64,000 bases of DNA from positions 1-64,000 of the forward strand of contig NZ_JADEXG010000023.1 in assembly GCF_015207255.1 (NCBI RefSeq), written 5' to 3'. A model generated the notes under the pieces. That model ran no database searches. It was not told the DNA's origin and was given only the letters and a program-made list of their open reading frames with translations. This document shows, piece after piece, positions 17,412 through 18,480 of the stretch. Each line of letters starts with the position of its first letter. The first letter of the stretch is position 1. This DNA is from Vasconcelosia minhoensis LEGE 07310 (GTDB lineage Bacteria; Cyanobacteriota; Cyanobacteriia; Phormidesmidales; Phormidesmidaceae). The position numbers were made by a program, and so were the translations under genes.

Positions 17412-17436
17412 CCAAGGCGTTAGCTTATCGCCTTGG
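17412..17436. repeat. Inverted repeat hairpin upstream of the REP-associated transposase
   Basis: CCAAGGCG and CGCCTTGG form a perfect eight-base stem around a nine-base loop. It lies in the 310-base spacer between the 48-residue gene and the transposase at 17606. No T tract follows on the plus strand, so it is more likely a REP-like element than a terminator. The rest of the spacer (17296-17605) contains two HIP1 sites and no gene that I can see. Confidence 0.4.
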
Positions 17437-17873
17437 AAGTTTAGCTTTCTTAATATAGCGCAGCGAAGGGCAGAACCCGATTTTATCAGGCAGGTCTCGC
17501 TAAGGATTCTGGGGCAATTGGGATTAGGCCTGGGCAGGCGATAGCTGGAAGCGCGATCGCGGCATACTGAGGCTGCAAACAGCGATCGCTAGGTAACAAG
17601 ATCGGATGAAATATGACCCCGCTAAGCACCATCGGCGCTCAATTCGATTAAGTGGATACGACTATAGCCAATCTGGCTTCTACTTCGTTACCCTTTGCGT
17701 TCAGCATCGGGCCTGCCTATTTGGTCATATTCAGGATGGGCAAATGCATTTGAATAGTGCTGGCCTCATGATCGATCGATGGTGGCGCAAAATCCCCGAT
17801 AAGTTTCCCCACGTGACCATCGATGCCCAAATCGTTATGCCCAACCATTACCACGCCATCATCACCATCCCCG

Positions 17874-17901
17874 TTGGGGCAGACCCAAGTGTCTGCCCCA
17901 A
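17874..17901. repeat. REP-like hairpin inside the transposase gene (first)
   Basis: TTGGGGCAGAC and GTCTGCCCCAA are perfect 11-base arms around CCAAGT. The element is translated in frame as part of the transposase (VGADPSVCPN). GGGGCAGAC hairpins of this kind occur as dispersed repeats in cyanobacteria, as far as I recall. Confidence 0.6.
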
Positions 17902-17957
17902 TCCAGAATTGACGCCCCCCACCGACCCCATCCATCCAATCGCGGGGATTATTGCAT

Positions 17958-18002
17958 TGGGCGAACGTACTGCATCGGGCGAACACGTGGGTTCGCCCCT
18001 AC
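17958..18002. repeat. REP-like hairpin inside the transposase gene (second)
   Basis: GGGCGAAC at 17977-17984 and GTTCGCCC at 17991-17998 form a perfect eight-base stem with loop ACGTGG. A further GGGCGAAC copy lies at about 17959-17966, giving a half-site plus hairpin arrangement like REP/BIME elements. It is read through in frame (LGERTASGEHVGSPLL). Confidence 0.6.
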
Positions 18003-18267
18003 TGGCGGTGTCTTTGGGGCGGATGGTGCAATGGGCTAAAACGATGACGACGAATGAATATATCCGTGGGGTAAAACGCGGTGAATGGCAGCCGTTTCAT
18101 AAACGATTATGGCAGCGGAATTATTATGAGCACATCATTCGCGACGAAAAAGCCCTGACAAATATTCGAAACTACATAGCAGACAACCCAGCACGATGGA
18201 ACCGGGATCAGCTGCATCCTCAAAATCCATCAAAATACTAGGAATAGTCACGTCTGCAGGAGGTTAG

Positions 18268-18480
18268 GTCGTATTTTCAGTTGATAACCTCAAGGGTGGC
18301 GTTGGTAAAACCACCGCAGCGGTCAACGTGGCGGCAACCCTGGCGCATTCCTGCAAAGTTAAAACAGGCAGTACGACAAAACCTATGCGGGTGCTGCTAA
18401 TCGACCTCGACCCGCGAAGTAACGCTTCGCTAACGCTGCTAGGCTCAAGGAATAATACGACGCCAGTAAAACCACATTAG
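18268..18480 (+). pseudogene. ParA-family ATPase remnant
   Basis: The frame reads [20 protein letters not shown], the deviant Walker A of ParA/Soj ATPases, then [19 protein letters not shown], the A' motif region. After that it departs from the family and stops at TAG 18480. It has no start codon (a TAG precedes at 18265-18267), and the C-terminal two thirds are missing. Intact relatives are 200-260 residues. It is therefore a 5' fragment of a partition or MinD-like ATPase, perhaps left from a plasmid or island. A short further coding-like frame (LLKHELTRNDRQEWVKLTG, 18478-18570) follows and may be another remnant. Confidence 0.65.

Follow-up and report, generated by a model that had tools for sequence, protein, structure and literature searches.

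Insertion of REP sequences into the genes of REP transposases is already known for TnpAREP subclass 2.4. In the parts of Quentin et al. (2018, PMC6006769) drawn on here, REPs of this subclass are inserted in frame in tnpAREP genes, generally between the HuH and Y motifs, where a peripheral extension of the protein is predicted. Two further descriptions are relevant, again as far as the consulted sections of each paper go: a REP doublet forming a hairpin is a REPIN (Bertels and Rainey 2011, PMC3116915), and GTAG REPs occur in cyanobacteria and within genes (Di Nocera et al. 2013, PMC3733652). The portion of a 2021 study (PMC8266576) that we used reports that changes of the foot, including GTTG, spare binding and impair cleavage by one enzyme of group 3, and that no foot change is tolerated by the group 2 enzyme of E. 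coli. The literature searches turned up no study in which a RAYT regulates itself by way of REPs within its gene.

A REPIN within a cyanobacterial RAYT gene

The window is a 64,000-nucleotide stretch of the Vasconcelosia minhoensis LEGE 07310 genome (G000 below). It had been predicted, from the letters of the window, to contain a REP transposase gene with REP-like hairpins inside its coding region. The features of this gene are as follows.

17606..18241, + strand: RAYT/TnpAREP gene, an open reading frame of 211 aa (NF047646 and Y1_Tnp matches, 19-sequence alignment, remote 4er8 match)
aa 79-83 of this frame: HUH motif PNHYH
17873..18002, feet included: inserted REPIN, 130 nt, aa 90-133 (alignment with the G025 REPINs; AlphaFold2 low-confidence residues 93-133)
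17873-17876: left foot GTTG (GTAG variant), pointing outward
arms 17874-17884 / 17891-17901: REP hairpin 1, TTGGGGCAGAC-CCAAGT-GTCTGCCCCAA, 11 bp, 100% complementary, 6-nt loop
17950-17966 / 17968-17984, + strand: 18-nt tandem duplication (direct repeat D2, spacing 18)
17959-17966: half-site GGGCGAAC
arms 17977-17984 / 17991-17998: REP hairpin 2, GGGCGAAC-ACGTGG-GTTCGCCC, 8 bp, 100% complementary, 6-nt loop
17999-18002: right foot CTAC (GTAG on the minus strand), pointing outward
aa 169-170: WQ
aa 190-195: tyrosine motif YIADNP

The open reading frame is a REP-associated tyrosine transposase (RAYT, or TnpAREP) of the Y1 HUH superfamily. It matched Pfam Y1_Tnp with 23.9 bits, above the cut-off of 23, and the NCBIfam model NF047646 ("REP-associated tyrosine transposase") with E 4.5e-15 and 55.8 bits, which is below that model's cut-off of 80 bits. 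Both PNHYH and YIADNP are conserved, with invariant residues, in an alignment of 19 sequences, and a profile of the protein and its relatives remotely matched a solved TnpArep structure, 4er8 (E 8e-6), the E. coli protein according to the part of PMC6006769 consulted. The assignment of the host gene in the original prediction was thus correct.

The two perfect hairpins that had been placed between the HUH and tyrosine motifs, with arms of 11 and 8 bases, were found at the coordinates expected. We initially read them as two separate elements, and dropped this reading once a related genome, G025, proved to contain the same hairpin types in inverted pairs with a spacing of 76 nt; because of these pairs, both hairpins are parts of one REPIN, that is, an inverted REP pair. 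A degenerate hairpin pattern matched the window once, at hairpin 1, and never matched in 100 shuffles of it, and Rfam gave no match. The additional half-site GGGCGAAC was also present, and owes its origin to the 18-nt tandem duplication. The insert had been thought to add about 45 codons in frame. It is in frame, but alignment with relatives that have no insert puts its size at about 40 codons. Judging by the open reading frame, the insert is presumably translated.

The REPIN would encode a disordered loop. In an AlphaFold2 model built from a four-sequence alignment (mean pLDDT 66.7), the core was predicted with fair confidence and residues 93-133 fell below pLDDT 50, coinciding almost exactly with REPIN-encoded residues 90-133. 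In a related RAYT without the insert (L101, in which only the N-terminal half can be followed and the remainder is broken), the strand after the HUH motif appears by eye to run directly into the next helix.

Of the described groups, TnpAREP subclass 2.4 (Bertels group 4) is the one that the window RAYT, which is cyanobacterial, most closely resembles. As far as the consulted text of PMC6006769 goes, it shares with that subclass the cyanobacterial host, the WQ motif, variability in the segment that follows the HUH half (beta3 to alphaC), in-frame REPs between HUH and Y and a predicted peripheral loop. The consensus in that paper's table is NH[IFV]H, WQ and YIxNNP; the window protein has WQ, but its NHYH and YIADNP each differ by one residue; its nearest homologue, L009 of G025, has NHFH, WQ and YIRNNP. 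Two other differences concern the DNA: the subclass description has one double-foot REP where the window has an entire REPIN made up of two REP subtypes, and it gives flanking REPs (the REPtron) as typical, though not as a condition of membership, whereas no flanking REP was found within 300 nt of the window gene and no dispersed one in G000. Compared with REPINs as presented in the relevant part of PMC3116915, the insert likewise consists of two inverted REPs whose feet point outward and whose spacer is less conserved, and its counterparts in G025 are repeated and clustered beside a RAYT gene. It differs in lying within a RAYT coding region, in being single copy in G000, in having one GTTG foot and in its internal 18-nt duplication. 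Like the GTAG REPs within genes and the palindromic elements of Rickettsia covered in the consulted text of PMC3733652, it is a short palindromic repeat tolerated in frame in a protein gene; unlike them, it sits in a gene of the family thought to mobilize the repeat, and within that gene insertions are much more frequent in the loop than in the remainder.

Copies in the window's own genome and in a related genus

The original prediction had suggested a search of the genome for the same hairpins, and here the answer differed between genomes: there were none elsewhere in G000, and many were dispersed in G025. In G000 the both-hairpin pattern matched 43 sites at ≤2 mismatches, compared with 30 for a reversed control, and the two zero-mismatch places both lay inside the window RAYT gene. 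A DNA search of G000 with the insert found no second copy; the next best match was its own palindrome (E 0.05). One site with two mismatches and perfect 8-bp arms (C16:13050) was rejected as a dispersed copy: its GC stem is longer and T's come directly after it, which makes it resemble an intrinsic terminator. The window gene is therefore the sole holder of an intact REPIN copy in G000. A search within 300 nt of the gene for GGG/CCC hairpins whose arms are perfect over at least 7 found none, although such hairpins flank L009. A collection of plasmids contained only distant RAYTs and short, chance-like matches. Since there is neither a flanking REP within 300 nt nor a dispersed copy in G000, a currently active RAYT-REPIN pair is at most a candidate here. 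The REPIN is likewise not repeated in G000, and for this reason we refer to it as a REPIN-derived insert, homologous to the REPINs of G025.

Three other features of G000 were recorded. Just 3' of the RAYT gene, at 18274-18477, lies what appears by eye to be a ParA-like ATPase remnant that has no start and stops early. On the 5' side, at 17412-17436, there is an imperfect inverted repeat (11-nt arms, 91%) whose sequence is dissimilar to the REPs. In a second RAYT of G000 (L003, G000:C72:152592-153092) the internal double-foot hairpin is a different one, GTAGGGGCCGGTTTCAAACCGGCCCCTAC, and a truncated copy of it lies in frame near the C-terminus; under a looser pattern, a few further copies of this hairpin family occur at several dispersed places in G000.

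The closest homologue of the window RAYT is L009, which belongs to the same family but a different genus (G025) and shares about 63% amino acid identity with it. A family-wide search, in which 15 of 63 genomes matched at E 1e-30, revealed no closer relative. The G025 gene has both hairpin types at the identical site and in the identical phase, with two tandem REPINs directly 3' of its stop codon. Across G025 the both-hairpin pattern matched 111 sites at ≤2 mismatches (reversed control, 38), several of the copies being inverted pairs with starts 76 nt apart and GTAG feet pointing outward. The window insert and the G025 in-gene REPIN are identical at 41 of 44 hairpin positions and 31 of 53 spacer positions. 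They are 130 and 106 nt long, and of the 24-base difference the tandem duplication, which is missing from the aligned G025 copies, accounts for 18. We aligned six copies: the window insert, the G025 in-gene REPIN, the two downstream of the G025 RAYT and two that are dispersed. Among these six, a CAAC foot (GTTG on the coding strand) is restricted to the two in-gene copies and therefore points to a single shared insertion. GTTG is also the foot of one dispersed singlet in G025 (L177), which makes the shared foot a strong, though not unique, sign of common descent.

REPs of G025 also occur in unrelated genes. Twenty of 30 dispersed sites overlap some open frame (cut-off, at least 100), many of these frames being spurious or at an edge, and we counted as in-gene only the three whose open frame also encodes Pfam domains. 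These in-frame REPs are of the same family as the RAYT-internal ones and lie in a CobN/Mg-chelatase gene (L175:2-1000), a MetH-like gene (L176:2-1000) and an ABC-transporter gene (L178:3-1001). In the MetH-like gene the REP sits between two Pfam domains; in the ABC-transporter gene there is a Pfam domain on one side only.

Hairpins in RAYT loops across the class

A class-wide search gave matches at E 1e-12 in 133 of 388 genomes, and we collected 150 RAYT-like ORFs from the best-matching loci of this and narrower searches and from 79 further fetched places. Of these, 123 had both anchors and were surveyed for perfect hairpins with arms of at least 9; the 27 left out were mostly fragments. The segment from HUH to W (25,734 nt in all) held 41 hairpins against a shuffled mean of 1.32, an enrichment of about 30-fold. 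The N part (31,266 nt) held 3 and the C part (16,596 nt) held 2, against 2.02 and 0.75 in the shuffles. A loop hairpin was carried by 41 of the 123 RAYTs. Comparison with RAYT homologues thus showed the segment to be variable and missing from many of them, rather than a universally conserved stretch of protein whose hairpins have no dispersed copies.

Among the 41 loop hairpins, the foot was in phase 0 in 27 and in phase 1 in 11, and 3 had no foot; none was in the remaining phase, in which TAG would act as a stop codon. A flanking hairpin was also present at 22 of the 41 loci with an internal one, which is no more common than at the loci without (53/82). At 12 of the 22, the internal and flanking hairpins matched, compared with a permutation mean of 1.5 and a maximum of 6 in 5,000 permutations. 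Among the copies listed, the in-gene copy was identical to all dispersed copies in one genome (G375) and to most of them in another (G160). The dispersed inverted pairs of G025 and the match between internal and flanking hairpins bear out the description of the hairpins as REP-like, and support their assignment as REP-class elements of the window RAYT's lineage.

Other loops showed further variation. In two species (G332 and G310) a single compensated pair separates the in-gene sequence, GAAC...GTTC, from the dispersed one, GAAT...ATTC. Five RAYT loops (L014, L056, L060, L104 and L161) contain in-frame tandem duplications, often with REP halves, that give long low-complexity loops, such as the repeated CPHMV of L104.

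We also searched for a double-foot hairpin, GTRGGGGC...GCCCCYAC, in 12 genomes that we picked because their counts were low or because they had an internal hairpin. In five of them (G077, G099, G103, G176 and G237), all six double-foot hairpins found genome-wide lie in RAYT loops. The proportion was 1 of 2 in G000 and in G310, 1 of 3 in G180, 1 of 5 in G032 and 0 of 2 in G215; G133 and G134 had no genome-wide match to this pattern. A looser pattern for one hairpin family revealed related hairpins near the RAYT gene in G077, G237 and G099, and one more on another contig of G099.

Tolerated passenger or maintained target

We put the probability at roughly 0.78 that the REPIN is an in-frame insertion made in a shared ancestor and is now a tolerated passenger and a potential substrate. 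According to this account, an ancestor common to the window and G025 RAYTs would have acquired an entire REPIN, belonging to its own class of REP, in frame and within the tolerant loop that separates the HUH half from the tyrosine half. Most likely the RAYT itself mobilized the REPIN, acting close to the locus that encodes it; we infer both this transposition and the tolerance of the insert. Read as a disordered 44-residue loop, it would leave the two catalytic halves free to pair. Later, the window copy would have gained the in-frame 18-nt duplication and its spacer would have drifted, while the hairpin stems remained perfect. Today the REPIN would most likely be a tolerated passenger and potential enzyme substrate, and a candidate binding site.

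Between the window and G025, a pair compared because both carry the insert, and such pairs are survivors that have both kept the hairpin, the stems are identical at 32 of 32 positions. Third codon positions agree at 15 of 17 in the hairpin codons and 53 of 127 in the core (Fisher, P = 0.0004), with 33% agreement at fourfold-like sites of the core. With synonymous sites saturated, this exceeds the expectation for a pure passenger and speaks for some maintenance. Among the pairs listed, L010/L145 show two compensated stem differences and L072/L011 one, with no one-sided difference in either; these may equally come from a swap of one REP type for another. A third pair listed, L019/L021, is 97% identical in the core and has three one-sided changes that break the L021 hairpin, and L062 and L056 carry damaged versions. 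On a RAYT tree built from few columns, with 52 of 119 inner branches open, hairpin presence changes at least 21 times, which we took as a sign of turnover. Frequent loss, the occurrence of two phases, the disordered loop and the in-frame REPs of other G025 genes speak for a tolerated mobile insertion. A tolerated insertion is thus the most likely reading, and a kept target is possible.

The original prediction had proposed that the RAYT could regulate itself by binding its gene or mRNA. Spelled out, the protein would bind the REPIN hairpins of the gene while the DNA is single-stranded in replication or transcription, or those of the mRNA, and would thereby limit its own synthesis, with selection holding the stems. 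The stem conservation beyond synonymous expectation, the compensated differences and the in-gene copies that are intact where others are missing all fit this proposal. Binding of single-stranded REPs is published for groups 2 and 3 (PMC8266576, in the part consulted), but the window RAYT is closest to group 4. That fewer than half of the RAYTs (the 41 of 123) carry the hairpin at all also argues against it, as do the broken L021 hairpin, the alternative source of compensated differences and the same-family REPs in frame in unrelated G025 genes. We regard self-regulation as unlikely.

A related reading is that the in-gene REPIN is kept to lock the transposase to its own target. An intact REP would then accompany the gene through descent or horizontal transfer, and a genome lacking dispersed REPs could be reseeded from the coding sequence. 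It is suggested by the six double-foot hairpins of five genomes that all lie in RAYT loops and by the window gene holding the sole copies in G000, and we consider it quite improbable.

That the loop peptide itself is functional and under protein-level selection is far less probable still. Both in-gene copies encode VGADP.VCP and GEH.GSPLL, but the family uses two reading phases (27 and 11), loop lengths vary widely, the sequence follows the REP type, the loop is predicted to be disordered, and third codon positions are conserved too. Chance palindromes of a GC-rich coding stretch, with which the near-shuffled rate of single hairpins in the RAYT cores would agree, are refuted by the window shuffles, in which none is expected, by the 30-fold loop enrichment and by homology to a repeat family.

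Set against the parts of the literature that we searched, what appears to be new is a complete in-gene REPIN common to two genera, a measured loop enrichment and cognate match, and intact in-gene copies where dispersed ones are lacking. If the REPIN is a passenger only, a loop between the halves of an enzyme would be freely rewritable by its own mobile DNA, and short translated repeats would give rise to new stretches of protein. Should it instead be maintained as a target, the coding sequence of a transposase would contain that transposase's own substrate, with implications for how RAYT-REP pairs manage to persist and to spread while the RAYT gene rarely moves.
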